Part shown: positions 1 through 63,920 of the stretch, one piece after another | Numbering within the stretch: the stretch's first letter is position 1 | How the letters are laid out: every line of letters starts with the position of its first letter | Source of the DNA: an uncultured bacterium | GTDB taxonomy: Bacteria > Patescibacteriota > Saccharimonadia > Saccharimonadales > Saccharimonadaceae | Direction of reading: 5' to 3' | Length of the DNA stretch: 64,000 bases | Assembly: GCA_902761145.1 (NCBI GenBank) | Contig: CACWJA010000002.1 | Coordinates: 1-64,000 of the forward strand | The notes under the pieces: model-generated | Told to the model about the DNA's origin: nothing | The model's input: only the letters and a program-made list of their open reading frames with translations | The model's database searches: none | Translations under genes and position numbers: made by a program

Positions 1-3000
1 TAACAGTACTATATAAGAAACATAAGAAACAAGGTAAAGTAACCAAACTAGTACGTACTATAGAACAAACCAAGACAATAATAAAAAGTAAGAAACGTAC
101 TACAGCAGCCCTATCTGCTATTGCCCTCCTAGCCTCAGTAGGTACATTAGCAATACTACTAGCAAATAGTAAGAAAACTAACACCAATGCTATGGAAGGG
201 GGTACAGAACTCACAGTAGACGTAAATAGCGAAGACCTCACCATAGAAGTAGGAGATACGCCAGTCTTTGCATATCTACCAGTAAAACTCACTGTAGAAG
301 AAGCAACAACATCTGGTTACATATTATCTGCCTATGCAGAAGATACTAATCTAGTATCTACCACAGATGAATCTAACATCATTCCTATGGTAGCTATTCC
401 AGAACCAATAGAACCAAATGAAGAAGGTGTAGGCAAAGGATGGAGCCCTGTCACTACTCTCACAGACAACACTTGGGGCCTATCACTAGAACAACCACAA
501 GACCAAAATAGTGAAGTATATACAATACTATCTACAGACCAATCTAACCCTACTATCCTAAAATCTATAGACGACTATTCAGAAACAGAAGAGAACGATA
601 CTACCACCATCTACTATGGTTTCTATATTACTCCAGATACTCCTAAAGGTACCTATGAAGGCAGTAATATCACCTACACTGCACTAACCAACCCACCAGT
701 AGCTACAGTTACTTTTGATGGGAATGGACTATACTTCAACGACAACGAAGAACAAACTACTAATACAATAAAATATATCCCAAATGTGCCTACTTCTCAG
801 ACAGTTGCTTATTCTCATACCCCAAACGTAAATGATGAAGGAGAACAGGATGGCATATATGGTAGAGATCTTAATGCTACAGAAGTATATAGATTTGCAG
901 ATACTGCTACTAAAGTTCATGTAAAAATAGTACAGTCTGGTAATGATAGTACCTGTGGTCCAAATTCAGATGATTACTTCACCTTCTGGTCTGGTGCTCA
1001 TTCAGACTATACTGCAAAAGCAAATTATACTTCTGCAGTAAGAGCCTTTGGTAATACAAATGGCCAATACATGTTTGACAATTACAATAATGTAGAAATC
1101 GACCTAGACGGAACCACTGCTGTAACATTTGCCTACACTACTAACGGCTATCAGTACTGCTCTGGTACTGGCTATGGCTACTACGCCATAATCACTGCAC
1201 AAGATGTGGATGGCAATAATGTCCCAGTAATAGCTAACAATAGTGTCGCGGGGAACTATACTGTGCCAACTACTGAGGCAACACATAGATTCCTTGGCTG
1301 GAGCACAGACAAGAATGCACTAATTGGTGCTTACACTAGTGCAGATGATTTTGAGAACTACGTATTTAACTCTCCAGACGAAAAAGTAACAATGTATGCC
1401 ATCTGGGATCCAATCATAGAAATCACCTACAATGGTAATGGTGCAGATGATACTACTGATATGGCAAACGTAAACCAATACACTACAGACTTTACTACAG
1501 CAGGTAGAACAGTAGATCTACTAGCATCTAACTACCAACGTGCAGGCTATGGTTTCATAGGCTGGAGTGAAGACAAAGATGCATATACCAAACTAGTAAA
1601 TGGTGAAGACGTAACTATCTATGGTCCTAATGAAACTCTTACTATAGGCAGGGAAATGCAACAAAGGATGAGCCAGACAGGTAAACTAGAGCTAAACGCC
1701 ATCTGGGCAGAAGTAGCTAAAGACTCACAAGGTAATGACCTTACCTTCCAAACAGACGATCTCCTCACTACAGAACTAGCTGATGGCACCACACTTGCTA
1801 CCAAACCAAATGGCTATGTAACAGCACTAAAAGACAGTAGAGACAATGAAGTATATGCTGTAGCTAAACTAGCAGATGGTAACTACTGGATGATAGAAAA
1901 CTTGAGATTAGACAATAGCTCAGAACTATCACTACAAAACACTAATAACCCATCACTACCACTCACTAACGACTATAATGCAGGTACCACTAGTAACTTC
2001 CTATCTGCTACAAGTGATAGTTGGTGTACAAGCTCCAACGCCCAGTGCAACAACCAGTCTAAGCTAAATACCAATAATACCACTCTTGCTACCACCTCAC
2101 CAGAATTTAGCCAGAACTATACAAATGGTGCCCATAGTAGTGACTTCAATACAAACCTACATTCCTATGGCAACTATTACAACTGGTACTCTGCTACGGC
2201 TGGTAGAGGCACATATGAGACCGACAGCTACGAAGTAGTAGTAGGCGATATCTGCCCAGCTGGTTGGCAACTACCATATGGTGGTAGTGGTGACACAAAC
2301 AATGGTAAAGGCAATACTAGTGGCGGCTTCTATTACCTAAACAATCTACTAGGCAACAGCTCCAATGCTTGGCGTTCCTTCCCGAATAATTTCATCTATT
2401 CTGGATATTGGTATAATTCGCAAACAAGTAGTCGTGGTAACTATGGTTACTATTGGGCTTCTACTACGAGTGGCACAAGTAGCGCCTATAACTTATATTT
2501 CTACAACAGTTATGTGGGCTCCACGAGTAGTAATAGTAAATATTACGGTAGCTCCGTGCGCTGCGTAGCCCCTATCCAAACCACTATTACCTTTGATGGT
2601 AATGGCAGTACAAGTGGAGAGATGGCGAAACAGAAGATAGGTGCTAATAGTGCAGCGCCGCTAAACCAGAATACCTTCACTAAGAATGATTATGCATTTG
2701 CAAGCTGGAACACAGAAAGAGATGGCAGCGGCACAAGCTATGCTGACAGACAAGATTTTACGGCGGGAGAAGGTATTAATAATGTTACTCTGTATGCACA
2801 GTGGGCAGATTGCGTTCCTAATAAAATCTGCTATAAGTCAAACGGTGCCAATAGTCCCACCACTATGGATCCCCAATCCGCCTCATCTAGCACAGACGTA
2901 GAACTCTGGGCCTCCAACTATAAATACGACACCAATAATGATGGTCACAACGACTATGGCTTTGCTGGCTGGAGTGAAGACAAAGATGCTGCCACTAAAC

Positions 3001-5192
3001 TCACAGACAATAATCCAGATAACAACCCAGTAGTCTATGGTCCTAACCAAACTATCACCACTGGAGACCTAAGCCTTGAGGGCATGAAACTCTACGCTGT
3101 CTGGATAGCTCCCAAGGAAAACACTACCTTCCAAGACTTTATTTGTCCTAATAATACAGACATGCCTAAAGGCACTGTCATAGCCCTAAGAGACAACCGA
3201 GATAACGAAGTCTACACTGTAGCCAAACTAGCAGATGGTAACTGCTGGATGACAGAAAACTTAAGACTAGACAACAATGCCACTATTAACGCCACCAATA
3301 CCAATAACCCCATCAGCTCCTTTACTGTCCTCAGCCCTTCTTCTGATAGTTGGTGTACGAGCACCTCATCATCTTGCTTTAACCAAAGCATATTAAATAG
3401 CAACAATATAGCTAACACTGTCTCACCAATGACTGGAACAGATGCTAACATCTATTCCTATAGCAACTACTACAACTGGTACTCTGCTACAGCTGGTAAT
3501 GGTACTAGAAGTATATCCTCCGGTACAGTAGCAGGCGATCTCTGTCCAGCTGGCTGGCACTTACCGTATGGCGGTAATGAAACTAGCGCAAAAGGTGGTA
3601 ACACTAGTGGTGGCTTCTACTATCTAAATCAGCAGATGGGTGCAGCCACTGGTGCTGCAGGCTCCAACAACTGGCGCTCCTTCCCAAATAACTTCGTCTA
3701 TTCCGGCTATTGGTACGGTTCGTCGGCGTACTATCGTGGCAACTACGGCTACTATTGGTCGTCTACCGCGGGCAATACCAGTAGCGCCTACAATCTGTAC
3801 TTCCACAGCGGCTACGTGAATCCGACGAATAGCAGCGATAAGTACTACGGGCATTCGGTGCGGTGTGTGGCTCCAGTAGGGACTACCATCACCTTTGATG
3901 GCAATGGTAGTACCGGCGGAGAGATGTCTAAACAACGTATAGCACAAAACACTACTGCGCCTTTAAATTCTAATAAATTTACTAAAGACGAATATTTCTT
4001 TGGAAGTTGGAACACAGAAAGAGATGGTAGTGGTACAAGCTATGCGGACGGACAAGACTTTACGGCGGGAGAAGGTAATAACAATATTACGCTTTATACT
4101 CAGTGGGTAGAATGTGCGCCAAACTCTATCTGTTACAAACCTAACGGTGCCAATAGTCCTACCACTATTGATCCCCAATCCGCCTCATCTAACACAGACG
4201 TAGAGCTCTGGGCCTCTAACTACAAATATGACACCAATAATGACGGTCACAACGACTATGGCTTTGCTGGCTGGAGTGAAGATAAAGATGCTGCTGCTAA
4301 ACTAGTAGACAATGACTCAACCAACAACCCAGTAGTCTATGGTCCTAACCAAACCATCACCACTGGAGACCTAAGCCTTGAGGGCATGAAACTCTATGCT
4401 GTCTGGATAGCTCCAGAAGAAAACACTTCCTTCCAAGACTTCACTTGTCCTAATAATACAGATATGCCTATAGGCACTGTCATAGCCCTAAGAGATAATA
4501 GGGATAACGAAGTCTACACTGTAGCCAAGCTAGCAGATGGTAACTGCTGGATGACAGAAAACTTAAGATTAGACAATAATGCCACTATTAACGCCACCAA
4601 TACTAATAGCCCCATCAGCACCTTTACTGCCCTCAGCCCTTCTTCTAATAGTTGGTGTGAAGACAATTCAGAATCTTGTATTAACCAAAGCATGTTAAAC
4701 ACCAACAACATAGCTAAATCTGTCTCACCAATGACCGGAACAGATGCCAACATCTATTCCTATGGCAACTACTACAACTGGTACTCTGCTACAGCTGGTA
4801 ATGGTACTTATAGTACTGGCTGGAATGTCACAGTAGCAGGCGATCTCTGTCCAGCTGGCTGGCACTTACCGTATGGCGGTAATGGAACTAGCGCAAAAGG
4901 TGGTAACACTAGTGGTGGCTTCTACTATCTAAATCAGCAGATGGGTGGCGTTACATCTACGCAAGGCTCTAAGAACTGGCGTTCTTTTCCAAATAACTTC
5001 GTCTATTCCGGCGGCTGGTACGGTTCGTCGGCGGGCTATCGCGGCCGCTACGGCTACTATCGGTCGTCTACTGCGCTCAGTACCGGCTACGCGTACCACC
5101 TGAACTTCGGCAGTGACTACGTGGATCAGGGTACGAGTGGCAACCGTATGAGCTACGCGTACTCTGTTCGCTGTGTGGCTCCAGTAGAGTAG
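1..5192 (+). CDS. Giant FISUMP/InlB-repeat surface adhesin A (5' end outside window)
   Basis: The frame is open from base 3 to the TAG at 5190-5192, and about 60 codons are missing upstream judged by the paralogue at 12144. Bases 3-190 encode a Lys/Arg-rich loop, a hydrophobic helix and a T-N-A motif that could be a signal peptidase I site, so the ATG at 192 is internal. The mature part has a beta-rich domain (192-700), InlB-like (Listeria-Bacteroides) repeats beginning ITFDGNG and ending LYAQW/LYTQW (about 2583-2810 and 3883-4107), and three FISUMP (Fib_succ_major) domains at about 1800-2575, 3150-3870 and 4450-5190. Each FISUMP carries WM.ENLRLDN, CPAGW.LPYGG and SVRCVAP. Modules two and three are a recent near-identical duplication. 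The role inferred is adhesion or ligand binding outside the cell. The ends of modules two and three look hypermutated. Confidence 0.88.
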   Translation, partial: TVLYKKHKKQGKVTKLVRTIEQTKTIIKSKKRTTAALSAIALLASVGTLAILLANSKKTNTNAMEGGTELTVDVNSEDLTIEVGDTPVFAYLPVKLTVEEATTSGYILSAYAEDTNLVSTTDESNIIPMVAIPEPIEPNEEGVGKGWSPVTTLTDNTWGLSLEQPQDQNSEVYTILSTDQSNPTILKSIDDYSETEENDTTTIYYGFYITPDTPKGTYEGSNITYTALTNPPVATVTFDGNGLYFNDNEEQTTNTIKYIPNVPTSQTVAYSHTPNVNDEGEQDGIYGRDLNATEVYRFADTATKVHVKIVQSGNDSTCGPNSDDYFTFWSGAHSDYTAKANYTSAVRAFGNTNGQYMFDNYNNVEIDLDGTTAVTFAYTTNGYQYCSGTGYGYYAIITAQDVDGNNVPVIANNSVAGNYTVPTTEATHRFLGWSTDKNALIGAYTSADDFENYVFNSPDEKVTMYAIWDPIIEITYNGNGADDTTDMANVNQYTTDFTTAGRTVDLLASNYQRAGYGFIGWSEDKDAYTKLVNGEDVTIYGPNETLTIGREMQQRMSQTGKLELNAIWAEVAKDSQGNDLTFQTDDLLTTELADGTTLATKPNGYVTALKDSRDNEVYAVAKLADGNYWMIENLRLDNSSELSLQNTNNPSLPLTNDYNAGTTSNFLSATSDSWCTSSNAQCNNQSKLNTNNTTLATTSPEFSQNYTNGAHSSDFNTNLHSYGNYYNWYSATAGRGTYETDSYEVVVGDICPAGWQLPYGGSGDTNNGKGNTSGGFYYLNNLLGNSSNAWRSFPNNFIYSGYWYNSQTSSRGNYGYYWASTTSGTSSAYNLYFYNSYVGSTSSNSKYYGSSVRCVAPIQTTITFDGNGSTSGEMAKQKIGANSAAPLNQNTFTKNDYAFASWNTERDGSGTSYADRQDFTAGEGINNVTLYAQWADCVPNKICYKSNGANSPTTMDPQSASSSTDVELWASNYKYDTNNDGHNDYGFAGWSEDKDAATKLTDNNPDNNPVVYGPNQTITTGDLSLEGMKLYAVWIAPKENTTFQDFICPNNTDMPKGTVIALRDNRDNEVYTVAKLADGNCWMTENLRLDNNATINATNTNNPISSFTVLSPSSDSWCTSTSSSCFNQSILNSNNIANTVSPMTGTDANIYSYSNYYNWYSATAGNGTRSISSGTVAGDLCPAGWHLPYGGNETSAKGGNTSGGFYYLNQQMGAATGAAGSNNWRSFPNNFVYSGYWYGSSAYYRGNYGYYWSSTAGNTSSAYNLYFHSGYVNPTNSSDKYYGHSVRCVAPVGTTITFDGNGSTGGEMSKQRIAQNTTAPLNSNKFTKDEYFFGSWNTERDGSGTSYADGQDFTAGEGNNNITLYTQWVECAPNSICYKPNGANSPTTIDPQSASSNTDVELWASNYKYDTNNDGHNDYGFAGWSEDKDAAAKLVDNDSTNNPVVYGPNQTITTGDLSLEGMKLYAVWIAPEENTSFQDFTCPNNTDMPIGTVIALRDNRDNEVYTVAKLADGNCWMTENLRLDNNATINATNTNSPISTFTALSPSSNSWCEDNSESCINQSMLNTNNIAKSVSPMTGTDANIYSYGNYYNWYSATAGNGTYSTGWNVTVAGDLCPAGWHLPYGGNGTSAKGGNTSGGFYYLNQQMGGVTSTQGSKNWRSFPNNFVYSGGWYGSSAGYRGRYGYYRSSTALSTGYAYHLNFGSDYVDQGTSGNRMSYAYSVRCVAPVE
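3690..3866 (+). other. Second variable-looking FISUMP C-terminal segment in adhesin A
   Basis: This segment aligns codon for codon with the variable regions at 4995-5174 and 61126-61305 over most of its length, with one codon less near the end. It uses CG-rich codons (TCG, GCG) in a gene that otherwise prefers TCT and GCT. Residues at the same sites differ (Y-Y, N-Y, N, S-S and others). It has more third-position changes than the other two copies share, so it is an older copy or came from a different template. Confidence 0.5.
4995..5174 (+). other. Candidate DGR variable region, 3' end of adhesin A
   Basis: These are the last 60 codons before the invariant CVAPVE tail. Hand alignment to the copy at 61126-61305 gives 38 substitutions: 19 at first, 15 at second and 4 at third codon positions. 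Most changed codons are NNC or NNT, as expected if the template codons were AAC or AAT and only adenines were mutated. The flanks on both sides are nearly identical. The fold class (FISUMP, C-terminal SVRC) and the 3'-terminal position fit known DGR targets. No template repeat or reverse transcriptase was seen in the window. Confidence 0.7.
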
Positions 5193-5213
5193 TTTTATTC
5201 CTCTTCTTTATAG

Positions 5214-5461: not shown

Positions 5462-5598
5462 TGGTGGAGCGTATGAGAGACTTAGCTTTGCAAAGCAAAG
5501 CCAATACGTGGGGCGTTAATTCGGAAAATCCAAAATGGATTTTGGATTTTCGCTCTTCTCCTACCATGCGCAAACTCTGCTAGTTCTCGTCTTTACAC
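5462..5598 (-). repeat. M-element copy 2, ends in tRNA-Ala 3' copy
   Basis: Read on the minus strand, this element lies downstream of tRNA-Ala and copy 1. It ends with TCTCATACGCTCCACCA, the same 17 nt that end tRNA-Ala. It carries a perfect 13-bp palindrome at 5524-5551 (GAAAATCC... arms, 2-nt loop), a 7-bp hairpin (GCTTTGC-aaa-GCAAAGC) and a T-arm-like stem (AACT with AGTT). Related copies are at 5649 and 15346. It contains no convincing ORF. Confidence 0.7.
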
Positions 5599-5648
5599 AT
5601 CTCTGATTGATAATAAAAAAAAGGAGCCATGAGCTCTTCTATGATTCT

Positions 5649-5775
5649 TGGTGGAGTGTGCGAGGCAAAAAATCGCAGGGCGTCGCCTCAATAAATCCAA
5701 AATGAATTTTGGATTTATATTTGGACTTCTACTGCGTTCGAACTCTATGAGTTTTCATCTCTTGCGAACTTTATC
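5649..5775 (-). repeat. M-element copy 1, ends in degenerate tRNA-Ala 3' copy
   Basis: This has the same architecture as the copy at 5462: a terminal tRNA 3'-end-like sequence ending CTCCACCA, a GCGA...TCGC hairpin, the GGGCGTCG block, a perfect 13-bp palindrome at 5691-5718 (ATAAATCC... arms) and an AACTC-ata-GAGTT stem that resembles the tRNA-Ala T-arm. It lies between tRNA-Ala and copy 2, so the two copies form a tandem array behind the tRNA. Confidence 0.7.
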
Positions 5776-5781
5776 GTCCAT

Positions 5782-5806
5782 AAAAAATAGCTACCTCTAG
5801 TAGCTT
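5782..5806 (-). terminator. Terminator of tRNA-Ala
   Basis: On the minus strand, AGCTAC and GTAGCT form a 6-bp stem with a short loop, followed by ATTTTTT. It lies 10 nt beyond the CCA end of tRNA-Ala. A-runs and T-runs flank both sides, so it could act in both directions. Confidence 0.7.
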
Positions 5807-5815
5807 TTTCATAAA

Positions 5816-5892
5816 TGGTGGAGCGTATGAGATTCAAACTCATGACCTCTACTATGCCATAGTAGCGCTCTAATCAGCTGAGCTAACGCCCC
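5816..5892 (-). tRNA. tRNA-Ala(GGC)
   Basis: The cloverleaf is complete: 7-bp acceptor (GGGGCGU with ACGCUCC, one G-U pair), GCUC D-stem, CUACU/AGUAG anticodon stem with loop AUGGCAU giving anticodon GGC, T-stem AUGAG/CUCAU and encoded CCA. Two elements ending in copies of its 3' end follow it on the minus strand. Confidence 0.95.
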
Positions 5893-5919
5893 GTGCTATT
5901 ATTTTAACATATGTTGTGA

Positions 5920-5973
5920 TAAAATGAAAGTATGAAGATGTATTATTCTGGATTTGTACCCCACTGGCGTTGA
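5920..5973 (+). promoter_or_regulatory. trpS promoter and leader ORF with a Trp codon
   Basis: A -10 box (TAAAAT, about 5920-5925) lies 6 nt before an ATG at 5932, the spacing seen at many leaderless starts in this window. That ATG opens a 13-codon ORF, MKMYYSGFVPHWR, ending in TGA at 5971-5973, 39 nt before trpS. The only Trp codon is second from the end. A Trp codon in a leader ORF directly before tryptophanyl-tRNA synthetase suggests control by ribosome stalling when charged tRNA-Trp is scarce. I see no clear competing terminator, so the mechanism is open. Confidence 0.45.
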
Positions 5974-6012
5974 CGATAGATTTTTGAAGTAATGTATAAG
6001 AGAAAGGATAAT

Positions 6013-7023
6013 ATGAAAACAATTTTAACAGGAATTCGATCAAATAGTGTGCTTACCCTGGGCAACTATCTAGGAGCGCTACTTCCTATGGTGAGGCTAG
6101 CGAACAAGCATTCCGCGGATTATAATATTAATATTTTTGTACCAGATTTGCATTCTATAATATCGGATATTGATGGCGATTTACGTGAAAATATTGTACG
6201 CACTATAAAGTATTATTTAGCTGCTGGTCTAGAGGCAAATGATAACGTGCATATATATAGACAAAGTTATGTACCAGCGCATTCTGAGCTGTGTTGGATA
6301 TTAAACTGTATTGCTACAATGGGTGAGACTTCTCGTATGATACAGTACAAGGAAAAGTCTAAGGGGCAGGAGAGCTGTAATGTGGGGATATTTGATTATC
6401 CTATATTGATGGCGGCGGATATCTTGCTTTATGACGCAACTTATGTACCTATAGGCGAGGACCAGTTTCAACACATTGAACTTACGCGAAATTTGGCTAT
6501 GAGATTTAACCACAAATTTGGTGAGATATTTACTGTGCCAGCCAAGACAGCTGATCAGATAAAATTTATGGGTGTAAGTGACGGCATAAGAATTCGAGAC
6601 CTTTTAAACCCAGAGAAAAAGATGAGTAAATCTACAAAAGCCGAGAATTCTAAGATTTTGCTAGATGATGATCCGGCGAAGGCAGCAAAGAAGATAATGT
6701 CCGCTACGACGGATTCGCTGGCTAAGGTAAAGTTTGACATGTTTAACCAGCCTGGAGTATCTAATTTGTTGCAAATTAGAGCGCTAGTAAGTGGCACTCC
6801 TCTTCAAGAGGTAATATCTGAGTGGGTAGGAGAGACGAGATATGGTACTCTGAAACGGGCTGTAGCGGATGGTGTGGCTCAGATGTTGAAGGAATTTCAG
6901 GATAGAATGGCGAATATCTCTGATGAGCAGGTGTACGATTTGCTGGAGAAGGGCGAGAAATACGCTAATGAAGTAGCAAATGCAAAGTTATTGGAGGCGC
7001 AAAAGGCATTTCATCTTAGATAG
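6013..7023 (+). CDS. trpS: Tryptophanyl-tRNA synthetase
   Basis: This cytoplasmic class I synthetase charges tRNA-Trp with tryptophan using ATP. The N-terminus has the HIGH-equivalent TLGN within a conserved NYLGAL stretch, and KKMSKST is the KMSKS loop. At 336 aa it has the usual bacterial TrpRS length. I chose the ATG at 6013 because GAAAGGA lies 6 nt before it; a start at 5992 would add seven poorly conserved residues. A short Trp-containing leader ORF precedes it. Its cognate tRNA-Trp(CCA) is at 43999. The next gene starts 43 nt downstream from its own promoter. Confidence 0.97.
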   Translation: MKTILTGIRSNSVLTLGNYLGALLPMVRLANKHSADYNINIFVPDLHSIISDIDGDLRENIVRTIKYYLAAGLEANDNVHIYRQSYVPAHSELCWILNCIATMGETSRMIQYKEKSKGQESCNVGIFDYPILMAADILLYDATYVPIGEDQFQHIELTRNLAMRFNHKFGEIFTVPAKTADQIKFMGVSDGIRIRDLLNPEKKMSKSTKAENSKILLDDDPAKAAKKIMSATTDSLAKVKFDMFNQPGVSNLLQIRALVSGTPLQEVISEWVGETRYGTLKRAVADGVAQMLKEFQDRMANISDEQVYDLLEKGEKYANEVANAKLLEAQKAFHLR

Positions 7024-23976: not shown

Positions 23977-24052
23977 GCCGTAATAGCTCAGTTGGTAGAG
24001 CAGCCGCCTTGTAAGCGGCAGGTCGTCGGTTCAAGTCCGACTTGCGGCTCCA
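23977..24052 (+). tRNA. tRNA-Thr(TGT)
   Basis: Acceptor GCCGUAA/UUGCGGC, anticodon stem GCCGC/GCGGC with loop CUUGUAA (anticodon UGU), T-arm GUCGG/CCGAC and encoded CCA. TATAAT lies about 13 nt upstream. Two 84-bp units follow, each ending in a copy of its 3' end. Confidence 0.95.
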
Positions 24053-24220
24053 TTTTTGTGGCTCCAGAGAGCCACAATGAGTTGGGAACCGGAGCGTCCC
24101 AAGGGGCAAACGGTTCAAGTCCGACTTGCGGCTCCATTTTTATGGCTCCAGAGAGCCATAATGAGTTGGGAACCGGAGTGTCCCAAGGGGCAAACGGTTC
24201 AAGTCCGACTTGTGGCTCCA
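24053..24220 (+). repeat. Two tandem 84-bp units ending in tRNA-Thr 3' copies
   Basis: Each unit holds a hairpin (GTGGCTC-caga-GAGCCAC in the first, ATGGCTC-caga-GAGCCAT in the second: a compensating pair change), a second stem (TTGGGA with TCCCAA), GGGGCAAAC and then GGTTCAAGTCCGACTTG.GGCTCCA, the T-arm to CCA of tRNA-Thr(TGT). The unit boundaries are the CCA ends at 24052, 24136 and 24220. Confidence 0.85.
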
Positions 24221-30364: not shown

Positions 30365-30421
30365 TTTTATGACAAAAGTTAATGGCTCGGACCTTCGGTG
30401 TGAGCCCTGTAGGATCCACCA
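30365..30421 (+). repeat. tRNA-Val 3'-end copy A
   Basis: TTTATGACAAAAGTTAATGG, then CTCGGACCTTCGGTGTGAG, then CCCTGTAGGATCCACCA, the tRNA-Val T-arm to CCA. It is about 93% identical over 57 bp to copy B at 32564 and forms the left boundary of the islet. Confidence 0.85.
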
Positions 30422-30508
30422 AACGGGTTATAAAATAATATTTAACTATTTCGTAATCTATAAATGCCTGTTAAATCCCTTGGTAAAATAGAGGGCTATT
30501 TTTTGTTA
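30421..30508. repeat. R3 left-end repeat of cassette 1
   Basis: It aligns at roughly 80% with 31400-31486 (shared CGTAATCTATAAAT, CCTGTTAAA and AAAATAGAGGGCTATT). Both copies directly follow a CCACCA-type end and finish with a weak CCCT/AGGG or CCTCT/AGAGG hairpin and a T-rich tail. Confidence 0.75.
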
Positions 30509-31361: not shown

Positions 31362-31400
31362 TTTATAAACTGTTAAAGTCTGGCGAATTAGGCCCCACCA
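31362..31400. repeat. R4 right-end repeat of cassette 1
   Basis: TTTATAAACTGTTAAAGTCT followed by GGCGAATTAGGCCCCACCA matches about 31 of 39 bases at 32521-32559. It directly abuts the R3 repeat of cassette 2. Confidence 0.7.
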
Positions 31401-31486
31401 AACGGTTTATAAAAATATTTTCATCTATTACGTAATCTATAAATTCCTGTTAAACCTCTCAACAAAATAGAGGGCTATTATGTGTC
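31400..31486. repeat. R3 left-end repeat of cassette 2
   Basis: This is the second copy of the repeat at 30421-30508, here preceded by GGCCCCACCA instead of the tRNA-Val copy. Confidence 0.75.
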
Positions 31487-32563: not shown

Positions 32564-32620
32564 TTTTATGACAAAAGTTAATGGCTCGGACCTTCGGTGC
32601 GAGTCCTGTAGGATCCATCA
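32564..32620 (+). repeat. tRNA-Val 3'-end copy B
   Basis: It repeats copy A with about four changes (GGTGCGAGTCCTG; the end reads CATCA). It is the right boundary of the 2.2-kb islet that begins at 30365. Confidence 0.85.
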
Positions 32621-59906: not shown

Positions 59907-59981
59907 TGGGGATTCGCCAAGTGGTAAGGCAGTGGGTTCTGGTCCCACCATTCGGGGGTTCGAATCCCTCATCCCCAGCCA
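59907..59981 (+). tRNA. tRNA-Gln(CTG)
   Basis: Acceptor UGGGGAU/AUCCCCA, anticodon stem GUGGG/CCCAC with loop UUCUGGU (anticodon CUG), T-arm GGGGG/CCCUC and encoded CCA. TATAAT lies about 12 nt upstream. A terminator and a 3'-end copy follow. Confidence 0.95.
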
Positions 59982-59983
59982 TG

Positions 59984-60003
59984 TCCCATGTAGGGATTTT
60001 TTT
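59984..60003 (+). terminator. Terminator of tRNA-Gln
   Basis: TCCC-atgta-GGGA followed by TTTTTTT. Confidence 0.75.
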
Positions 60004-60007
60004 ATTC

Positions 60008-60046
60008 GGGACTCGGACCTTCGGTGCGAATCCCTCATCCCCAGCC
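60008..60046 (+). repeat. tRNA-Gln 3'-end copy
   Basis: CTCGGACCTTCGGTGCGA precedes ATCCCTCATCCCCAGCCA, the 3' end of tRNA-Gln. The same 18-nt lead sequence precedes the tRNA-Val 3' copy B at 32564. A terminator (CCTC/GAGG plus TTTTTT, about 60049-60070) follows. Confidence 0.8.
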
Positions 60047-60119
60047 ATGTCCTCTATGAGGGGCTTTTTTATTTGGGACTCAAATTATCATTTTTTTGTG
60101 GTATTGTTAAGATATGAGC

Positions 60120-61078: not shown

Positions 61079-61107
61079 ACGCTGGGCCCTGAAATGAAGG
61101 AACTAAA

Positions 61108-63920
61108 CTACTCTACTGGAGCCACACAGCGAACAGAGTACCCGTTGAACTTATAGTTGTTATCCGTACCTGGAGCCACGTAGCCACTGTCGAAGTACAA
61201 GTAGTACGCGACGCTGGTACTACTCGCAGTAGACGACCAATAGTAGCCGACGCTACCACGAGCGCTCGCCGACGAACCGTACCAGTAGCTGGAATAGATG
61301 AAGTTATTTGGGAAAGAGCGCCATTTATTGGAAGCTTCAGTTGAGCCGTAGCTTCCATTTCCACCCATACTAGTGTCTAAGTGGGAGAAGGAACCGTTAG
61401 CTTCTGTTTTGTTACCTATAGGTAGTATCCAGCCAGCTGGGCAGAGGTCACCAGCAACGGTTTCTGCACCTTGTTCGCCAGTACTATAAGCACCTTTACC
61501 AGCAGTAGCAGAGTACCAGTTGTAGTTGTTGCCATATGATTGCCATTGGAAAGCTTTGTTGTCGTCATAGTTACCATTGTAACTAGCTATGGCGCCTTCA
61601 CCGCCTAAGTTAGTGTTGAAAGTATTGAGATAGGATTGGTCGTAGCAGGCAGCACTATTCCAACCTGTACACCAGCTTCTACCATTTGGTGATAGATGGT
61701 TGTAATTGTTGCCGTCATTATTCTTTATAGCTACATTACCGTCTACCGTTAGTGGGTTATTGGTATTGGTGGTGGAGATAGTAGAATCATTATCCAGCCT
61801 CAAGTTTTCTGTCATCCAGCAGTTACCGTCCGCTAGTCTGGCTACTGTGTAGATATTGCCGTCTCTACTGTCTGTAAGTGCAGTGATAGTATTCTTACCT
61901 ACAGTTAGTTGTCCTGTTTCTGTATTGTAGGTAGTAGGAGTGAGAGAGGAACAGCCTTGCCAATCTTGGAGAGAGATAGGGTTACCACTATTGTCTGTTT
62001 CTGCTGGTACCCAGACAGCATAGAGAATGTCTTTTCCTTCTGCTGCTTTTATGACTATATCTTTAGTCATGACGAATGATTGGTTAGGGTCATAGATGAC
62101 TGGGTCATTAGACTCATCATCATCCGTGAGATCTTCCCATGCAGCCTGATCTGTGCTCCAGCCAGCGAAGCCATAGCCAGTCTTTTTGTAGTTAGGAGCA
62201 TAGAGATCTATATTGTCACCTGCTATTACATCTTCATGTGCTAGAGTTACCGTAGTTGGAGTATCGCCATCGTAGGAAGTAGATTCCATACTACCAGCAG
62301 TAGCATTATTGCCGTCGTAGCTAATGTCTACTATTGGTGACCAGATAGCGTAGAGCGTTACTTTTTCGCCTGCGTTTAGAAACATATTGGTTTCTATATC
62401 AGCTGCATCTGCATAGTCAGCACTGGTAGCATTAGGATCTAAGCTCCAGCCGAAGAATTCGTAGTTATCATATTCTGTAGTGGCTGGGGTTTGGTATGCT
62501 CCAGAATATTGAGTGTTGCCCATAGCATAGGCTGGGTTACCATCAGCATCAGTAGCAGTAATGATAGCGTAGTAGCCATAGCCAGAGTTACCGCAGTAGC
62601 TTCCTCTATGATCGCTAGTAGTATAGGCAAGGGTTAGGGTGTTGCCTTGTACTGTTGTGTTCATAGACCAGCTTCGAGACTTACCAAATATATATTTGCC
62701 ATCAGAACCGTCTACTTTTACGCCAGATTCCCAGTTATTTACTGCAGTATAGTCTGGGTGACTGCCTTGCCAGAAGCTAAAATACTGGTCGGCATTAGGT
62801 CCACAGGTACCATCTGCTTCAATCTTGACAATATTCAGATTTACTTCCGTAGCATCTGCAAATTCATAGACGAAAGTATTGTTTAGTCCAATCGGGTACA
62901 TCTCACCCGGAGTTTGTTCGCCTGCATCATTTATGTTGGGGGTGTGAGAGTAGAGTTCAGTCTTTTCTGTTTCAGTTCTCTCGTAGCGTACTACATTGGT
63001 GGTTTTATCGCCATTGAAATTGAGGCCGTTACCATCAAAGGTTACTGTAACTAGATCTGCTCTATTGGCTTCTGCAGAGTAGTTTATCTCACTTCCTTCA
63101 TAGGTACCTTTAGGAACATCTGGAGTGATATAGAAACCATAGTAGATGGTAGTAGTGTCATTTGCATTTGTTTCTGAATAGTCGTCTATAGATTTTAGGA
63201 TAGTAGGGTTAGATTGGTCTGTAGATAGTGTTGTGCATACTTCACTGTTTTGGTCTTGTGGTTATTCTAGTGACAAGCCCCAGGTGTTATCTGTGAGAGA
63301 AGTATACTCTGATAAGTCTTCTTCATTTAAAGCCACCATGGGTATTTTGCTGTCTGGATCTGTAGTAGATACTATGTCTGTACTATCTGTGTAGGCTGTA
63401 AGAGTGTAGCCTGCTTGGGTTGCTTCTTCTACTGTGAGTTCTACTGGTAGGACTGCAAAGACTGGTTCGTCTCCTACTTCTATAGTTAGTTCTTCACTAT
63501 CTACGTCTAGGGTGAGAGAAGATTCGTTTTCTTCTGTGTTTCCTTCTGCTGCATTAGTATTGCTTTACCTACATTTACTAGGAGTGTAGCTAATGTACCT
63601 AATGATACTACTAGTGCTAGTATTGCTAGTGGGATAGATACTTTCTTTTTGGATTTTATGGTAGATATGATATTAGTTAACTTAGATTTGGAGGATGATT
63701 CTGTGGCTTTATTATTATGCTTCTTTTTATAATGTAGTACTGTAGCTACTACTGCTAGTATTACTACTATGCTTATTGTGATGATAGTAGCTTCTGTACC
63801 ACCTATACCATGAGTAAATAGGCCTGTGTCTGGCGCTGAGATGTCTGTAGTAGGGTCTACTGGTGTAGAGCTGCCTGGTTCTACTATGTTAATCTTGATA
63901 TTAGTGGTAGTAGCAGCCAT
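61108..63920 (-). pseudogene. FISUMP/InlB-repeat surface adhesin C, broken
   Basis: The gene starts at 63920 (MAATTTNIKINIVEPG, APDTG, hydrophobic helix, basic loop, second helix) with an AGGAGGAG SD. The frame breaks near 63560: a one-base loss moves VGKA... off the frame that reads NTNAAEGNTEENES. Downstream, the conserved SLEQPQDQNSE has TAA (63262-63264) for CAA. The rest is open to 61108, with an InlB-like domain and one FISUMP domain (WMTENLRLDN, CPAGW.LP, SVRCVAPVE). An internal ATG at 62901 could express the C-terminal part without export signals. The variable region is intact. Confidence 0.85.
61126..61305 (-). other. Candidate DGR variable region in broken adhesin C
   Basis: These 60 codons align without gaps to 4995-5174 on the plus strand. 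The sequence beyond the stop is also similar for a short distance (TAGTTT...TTCC). See the entry at 4995 for the substitution counts. Confidence 0.7.

Follow-up and report, generated by a model that had tools for sequence, protein, structure and literature searches.

The window, by which we mean the whole stretch of DNA analysed here, comprises the first 64 kb of contig 2 in a genome of 872 kb (11 contigs, 98.35% complete) from the genus Nanosyncoccus, which includes Candidatus Nanosyncoccus alces (NZ_PRLM01000005.1; hereafter N. alces). The genus belongs to Saccharimonadota, in keeping with the CPR host that the first-pass annotation of this DNA had supposed. Two genes in the window encode proteins that we call adhesin A and adhesin B, a name suggested by their domain content. 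Adhesin A is a surface protein of gut or rumen Saccharibacteria and combines three tandem FISUMP domains (A1-A2-A3) with Listeria-Bacteroides repeats. The features to which we refer are as follows (coordinates are those of the window unless a contig, C4 or C6, is named):

3-5192, plus strand: reading frame of adhesin A, truncated by the contig start (list of open reading frames; TIGR02145 in three stretches, PF09603, and PF09479)
2388-2579, plus strand: strongly diverged homologous region in internal domain A1 (protein match; weak template-adenine signal, p from 0.19 to 1.6e-5 across pairs)
3692-3874, plus strand: probable older copy of the variable repeat, in internal domain A2 (resembles the N. 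alces template; template-adenine excess in pairs with A3, B, C4a, and C6)
4434-5192, plus strand: FISUMP domain A3, bearing the variable repeat (PF09603, E = 3.6e-9; predicted structure)
4997-5193, plus strand: very probable variable repeat of adhesin A, in A3, the third of its FISUMP domains and the C-terminal one (bounds set by similarity to the N. alces template, L061:5311-5507; A3/B differences concentrated at template adenines)
61107-61303, minus strand: very probable variable repeat of adhesin B (resembles the N. alces template; partner of A3 in the alignment)
61108-62901, minus strand: adhesin B, with its C-terminal FISUMP domain at about 61111-61971 (list of open reading frames; TIGR02145, E = 9.5e-14)
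C4:91989-92167: repeat C4a, used in the pairwise template-adenine test
C6:22884-23067: repeat C6, used in the same test

The identity of the domain is demonstrated by profile matches above the respective cut-offs: TIGR02145 gives 129 bits for adhesin A and 52.5 bits for adhesin B (cut-off 41.65), and PF09603 gives 72.2 bits for adhesin A (cut-off 33.9). The C-terminal 65 residues have about 21 matches within the same genome, and in these the glycine, tryptophan, SS(T/V), and (V/I/L)RC positions are mostly fixed, with variable codons between them. The AlphaFold model of A3 (mean pLDDT 89) was compared with known structures by VIA, in which the best match is the C-terminal domain of Legionella Lcl (8q4e; Z 8.0 over 108 residues, 2.5 A), followed among the first 20 matches mostly by C-type-lectin chains (Z 4.3 to 6.2). 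Foldseek returned no significant match to the same model (best, 4eps), nothing in a PDB sequence search matched the domain profile, and the viral contigs searched held no relative of the domain. Going by the predicted structure, A3 likely has a C-type-lectin-like fold.

Both adhesin genes show signs of rearrangement. Domain A2 lies inside adhesin A (window 1740-5192), keeps the template-adenine pattern described below, and has no stop codon behind it; it is apparently a former C-terminal repeat that was enclosed by tandem duplication. Homology between adhesin B and the N-terminus of adhesin A extends upstream of the ATG of B (window 63061-63516; repeats I1 and I3), and the N-terminal part of B lies in a separate open reading frame (63507-63920), so that a frame break in adhesin B is possible. 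Elsewhere in the window, a stretch of 84 bases that takes in the 3' end of a tRNA occurs twice, head to tail, with 96% identity between the copies (24027-24194), a similar duplication of a tRNA 3' end lies at 59957-60069, and a repeated element, to which Rfam gave no match at its gathering thresholds, occurs at 30365-30506, 31389-31485, and 32564-32620 (57 nt at 95% and 97 nt at 81%).

The pattern at issue was seen when window 4995-5174 was aligned over 60 codons with the reverse complement of 61126-61305 (adhesin B being on the minus strand). Both stretches are in-frame C-terminal parts of a FISUMP domain with no stop codon inside, and our recount, in frame in both genes, gave exactly the 38 substitutions of the first-pass annotation, distributed 19/15/4 over codon positions 1/2/3. 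The same annotation described the flanking codons as nearly unchanged. That is true of some ten codons on the upstream side (WRSFPNNF) and, downstream, up to and including the stop codon, but farther upstream 50% of third positions differ (46 of 92 codons between A3 and B, a proportion of 0.50), compared with 4 of 58 (0.07) within the repeat. Between B and C4a, third-position divergence is likewise 47% upstream and 14% within the repeat. Within the A3 and B repeats, therefore, synonymous sites are homogenized and codon positions 1 and 2 are scrambled. The homogenization of third positions is what copying from a single template would produce, and it shows that the two repeats share a source more recent than the divergence of the genes themselves. 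Similarity to the N. alces template sets better limits for the repeats, approximately 4997-5193 and 61107-61303; so defined, the repeat of adhesin A reaches the stop codon at 5192, that is, the 3' end of the target gene. Its scaffold codons are template-like, and the 3' ends of the variable repeat and the template are conserved in sequence.

Because such an internal comparison cannot separate mutagenesis by a retroelement from selection on binding loops, templates were sought in other genomes. Among the loci compared, the N. alces template (L061:5315-5503) is the closest to the repeats of the window; it is non-coding, aligns with A3 and B without gaps, and reads VYSGNWNGSSANNRGNNGNYWSSTANNTNNAYNLNFNNGNVNPGTNNNNKNNGNSVRCLAPAE. 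It adjoins a reverse transcriptase (RT) gene on the opposite strand (5573-6733), and an open reading frame with an HTH domain is also present there. Counted over all codon positions, A3 and B differ at 27 of 60 N. alces template-adenine sites and at 11 of 129 other sites (Fisher p = 2e-8). When only codon positions 1 and 2 are used, which removes the effect of codon position, they differ at 27 of 56 template-adenine sites and at 7 of 62 others (p = 1.2e-5) in one count, and at 27 of 57 and 7 of 69 (p = 5e-6) in another. Among 17 codon shifts, from -8 to +8, the true register gives the strongest contrast (24/47 versus 4/39). An excess at template adenines is found in every pair among A3, B, A2, C4a, and C6 (p from 1e-5 to 1e-10, and from 7e-6 to 1e-10 once A3/B is set aside), and the signal of A1 is weak.

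Eleven further congeneric templates agree (p between 2e-4 and 3e-6 when only codon positions 1 and 2 are counted), although the resulting twelve templates from twelve genomes are related to one another and do not amount to twelve independent tests. A grid of AAY codons is common to the congeneric templates, one of which reads VYSGNWNGSSANNRGNNGNYWSSTANNTNNAYNLNFNNGNVNPGTNNNNKNNGNSVRC. The suggestion that AAC and AAT codons of a template had been mutated at their adenines is borne out: 17 of the 25 codons that differ at position 1 or 2 are AAC or AAT in the N. alces template. At template-adenine sites, A3 has A26 G18 T12 C4 and B has A31 T14 G13 C2. The adenine-directed pattern is hence demonstrated against templates that were found independently; as these come from other species, what is demonstrated is concentration at adenines and not confinement to them. 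Up to 11 differences between A3 and B lie at non-adenine sites, an upper bound, since further adenines may have been present in the local template. This is more than in the intact congeneric pairs described next, which argues that A3 and B were not both re-homed very recently from one template.

Across the genus, RVT_1 matches were found in 60 of 99 congeneric genomes, and many of the RTs carry the motifs IGN(L/Y)(T/S)SQ and YGRYVDDF, which we take to be like those of diversity-generating retroelements (DGRs). A DGR RT profile built from seven congeneric RTs matches 97 of 174 congeners and, among the better assemblies, 62 of 110 (48 of 110 being without a match). In the congeneric cases compared, the template lies directly 3' of the RT gene but on the opposite strand, and this arrangement is met repeatedly in the genus. 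A scan of 30 RT loci recovered an adjacent template/variable pair in 20, and these 20 intact pairs contain a single non-adenine mismatch in 965 sites in 80-base windows, with none in 19 of the 20; the low counts are due in part to selection, as the scan tolerated at most two non-adenine mismatches per window. At template adenines, the variable copies of these pairs read A348 G147 T110 C30. Most of the variable copies translate to ends of the form WSST...(V/I)RC (e.g. WSSTALNSSNAYDLYLNSSSVGPALRNLKYYGFSVRCVAK). Since intact pairs mostly encode FISUMP-like ends, such ends are genuine DGR targets in the genus, and the pairing of FISUMP domains with DGRs is very common in Nanosyncoccus. The earlier proposal that the FISUMP domain is the target in the window is upheld: the domain matches TIGR02145, and most of the congeneric variable copies end in the same domain.

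A related example comes from G045 (RGIG524, a dairy cattle duodenum MAG). At codon positions 1 and 2, its repeats L054 and L060 are unlike each other at 25 sites, every one of which is a template adenine; none of 66 other sites and none of 61 third positions is changed. A search of this assembly (77% complete) with the RT profile found no RT. In N. alces, the local target that belongs to the cassette ends early (L061:8005-8120, minus strand): after SSTAN, its frame enters TAGTTCGGCGT, which stands downstream of the template, as though the remainder of the variable repeat had been removed in a homing event.

For the genome of the window itself, the first-pass annotation had recommended a search for an RT and a template, the lack of both in a complete genome being held to tell against its interpretation. 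The 11-contig assembly yielded no RT, whether searched with RVT_1 or, up to an E-value of 10, with the DGR RT profile, for which the 97 matches among 174 congeners serve as positive control. No template was found either: in this assembly, variable-repeat and N. alces template queries match copies within FISUMP genes and, beyond these, only short chance matches. The accessory HTH gene of N. alces was likewise not found in the assembly, in a search that had no positive control in its run. At the site syntenic to the N. alces cassette, the same flanking genes are followed by more pilin genes and no cassette. Apart from the far end of C5 and from C11, whose 2,893 bases are all N, the contig ends and small contigs showed no cut-off cassette; the contig ends of C2, C3, C7, and C8 fall within FISUMP genes. 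The same assembly (G000) has two near-identical DnaK genes on the separate short contigs C9 and C10 (L179 and L180). Neither RT nor template is seen, but the genome stands in eleven contigs, one of them all N, so that the absence is unproven and goes only half way towards the refutation that the first-pass annotation had named. The variable repeats of the window are therefore orphans, their cassette being either lost or hidden in an assembly gap.

We conclude that the stretch at the 3' end of adhesin A is very probably a DGR variable repeat produced by mutagenic retrohoming. Under the mechanism that we propose, a template RNA rich in AAY codons would serve an error-prone reverse transcriptase, whose misreading of adenines would yield a mutated cDNA, and this cDNA would replace the 3' end of several adhesin genes. 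In this way, about two dozen residues of the C-type-lectin-like FISUMP domain would be randomized, probably on its binding face, while scaffold codons would stay fixed. We infer that a cassette of this type was at work on the adhesin genes of the present lineage, and the domain presumably binds something on a partner cell. Our claim is limited to the variable repeats and does not extend to a complete or active DGR in this genome.

Two explanations would dispense with a retroelement altogether. That A and B reflect ordinary divergence of a duplicated gene, or an artefact of assembly, has next to no probability: contigs do end in this gene family, but ordinary divergence favours third positions, which is true upstream of the repeat (46/92 codons) and untrue inside it (4/58). 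The other is positive selection on binding-loop residues combined with gene conversion among paralogues: gene conversion also homogenizes third positions and selected loop residues would alter positions 1 and 2. Yet selection has no reason to track, nucleotide by nucleotide and in exact register, the template adenines of other species, and gene conversion would not add differences at those sites; moreover, the base spectrum matches that of intact DGRs and the G045 pair differs at template adenines only. Because the A3/B differences follow the template adenines of other species in register, selection and conversion by themselves are rejected, and we consider it very improbable that no retroelement was ever involved.

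The two other explanations keep the DGR origin and differ in the fate of the cassette. It may have been lost from the lineage, leaving fossil variable repeats and a frozen repertoire that evolves by point mutation and recombination, and to this we assign an even chance. In an assembly that is 98.35% complete, no RT, template, or accessory gene was found, the RT profile being one that matches 97 of 174 congeners; 48 of 110 good congeneric assemblies also lack an RT; the syntenic site is empty; and the up to 11 non-adenine A3/B differences, unlike the intact pairs, indicate loss or long inactivity. Against loss stand the eleven contigs, several of them ending inside FISUMP genes, and the 2,893 bases of N that make up C11. 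Alternatively, the cassette may be present in an assembly gap or in C11, from where it would serve A, B, and the C4 gene in trans. Of the 30 congeneric RT loci, 14 have the RT no more than 2.5 kb from a contig end, compared with about 6.2 expected, so that cassettes seem prone to fall into assembly gaps; C2, C3, C7, and C8 end in FISUMP genes; and trans diversification by a remote RT and template is documented in Thiohalocapsa PB-PSB1 (PMC10907252). The non-adenine A3/B differences speak against very recent homing from one template, and we regard a hidden cassette as a serious contender that falls somewhat short of an even chance, loss being placed slightly ahead. More tentatively, and with more doubt than confidence, we suggest that the roughly 20 FISUMP surface domains per Nanosyncoccus genome could be fed in trans by one or a few templates, and that lineages losing the retroelement would keep a frozen adhesin repertoire that still duplicates, as in A1-A2-A3.

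Saccharibacteria are known as very small epibionts reliant on partner cells, and little is understood of the way in which partners are selected or exchanged. In this genus, retroelement RTs are found in over half of the better assemblies, for the most part directed at the ends of large surface proteins, which makes partner recognition by programmed hypermutation a testable proposition. In the genome of the window, the targets are scarred and the machinery is missing or hidden, so that the timing of gain and loss can be studied.

DGRs of candidate phyla and FISUMP targets have both been published, and what is new here is a further variable repeat of that sort. Our literature search found no paper pairing Nanosyncoccus with a retroelement, or DGR with the term ‘FISUMP’; the Pfam name Fib_succ_major does lead to earlier DGR work. 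In human microbiomes, Fib_succ_major and DUF1566 domains have been described as targets of DGRs (Ye 2014, PMC4159848). As here, the variable protein has a domain of this family at its C-terminus; unlike here, those targets come from a metagenome survey whose detailed Fib_succ_major example is a fimbrillin-like Mfa2 lipoprotein and not a Saccharibacteria adhesin with Listeria-Bacteroides repeats (PMC4159848). An enrichment of DGRs in CPR bacteria is on record, and DGR variable regions, where annotated, have C-type-lectin folds at the C-terminus (Roux 2021, PMC8144416). The CPR (Patescibacteria) DGRs of clade 2 of that study resemble the present case in being chromosomal and in having C-terminal targets with a C-type-lectin fold, but their targets are usually without recognizable transmembrane or other conserved domains (PMC8144416), whereas FISUMP domains and Listeria-Bacteroides repeats are present here.

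The likeness of A3 to the C-terminal domain of Legionella Lcl (8q4e) concerns predicted structure only and not binding function. The trans-acting DGRs of Thiohalocapsa PB-PSB1 also have targets that are patterned despite having no neighbouring RT or template; there, the remote RT and template lie in the same genome and diversification in the population was seen (PMC10907252), whereas the window is known from the sequence of one assembly. In N. alces, the target is accompanied by an RT, a template, and the HTH gene, whereas the search of the genome of the window found none of the three; the local target of N. alces, unlike the repeats of the window, is shortened by deletion. In other respects, the cassettes of N. 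alces and other congeners agree with the repeats described here: the FISUMP C-terminus is homologous, the templates align without gaps, AAY codons stand at the same places, and the base spectrum is the same.
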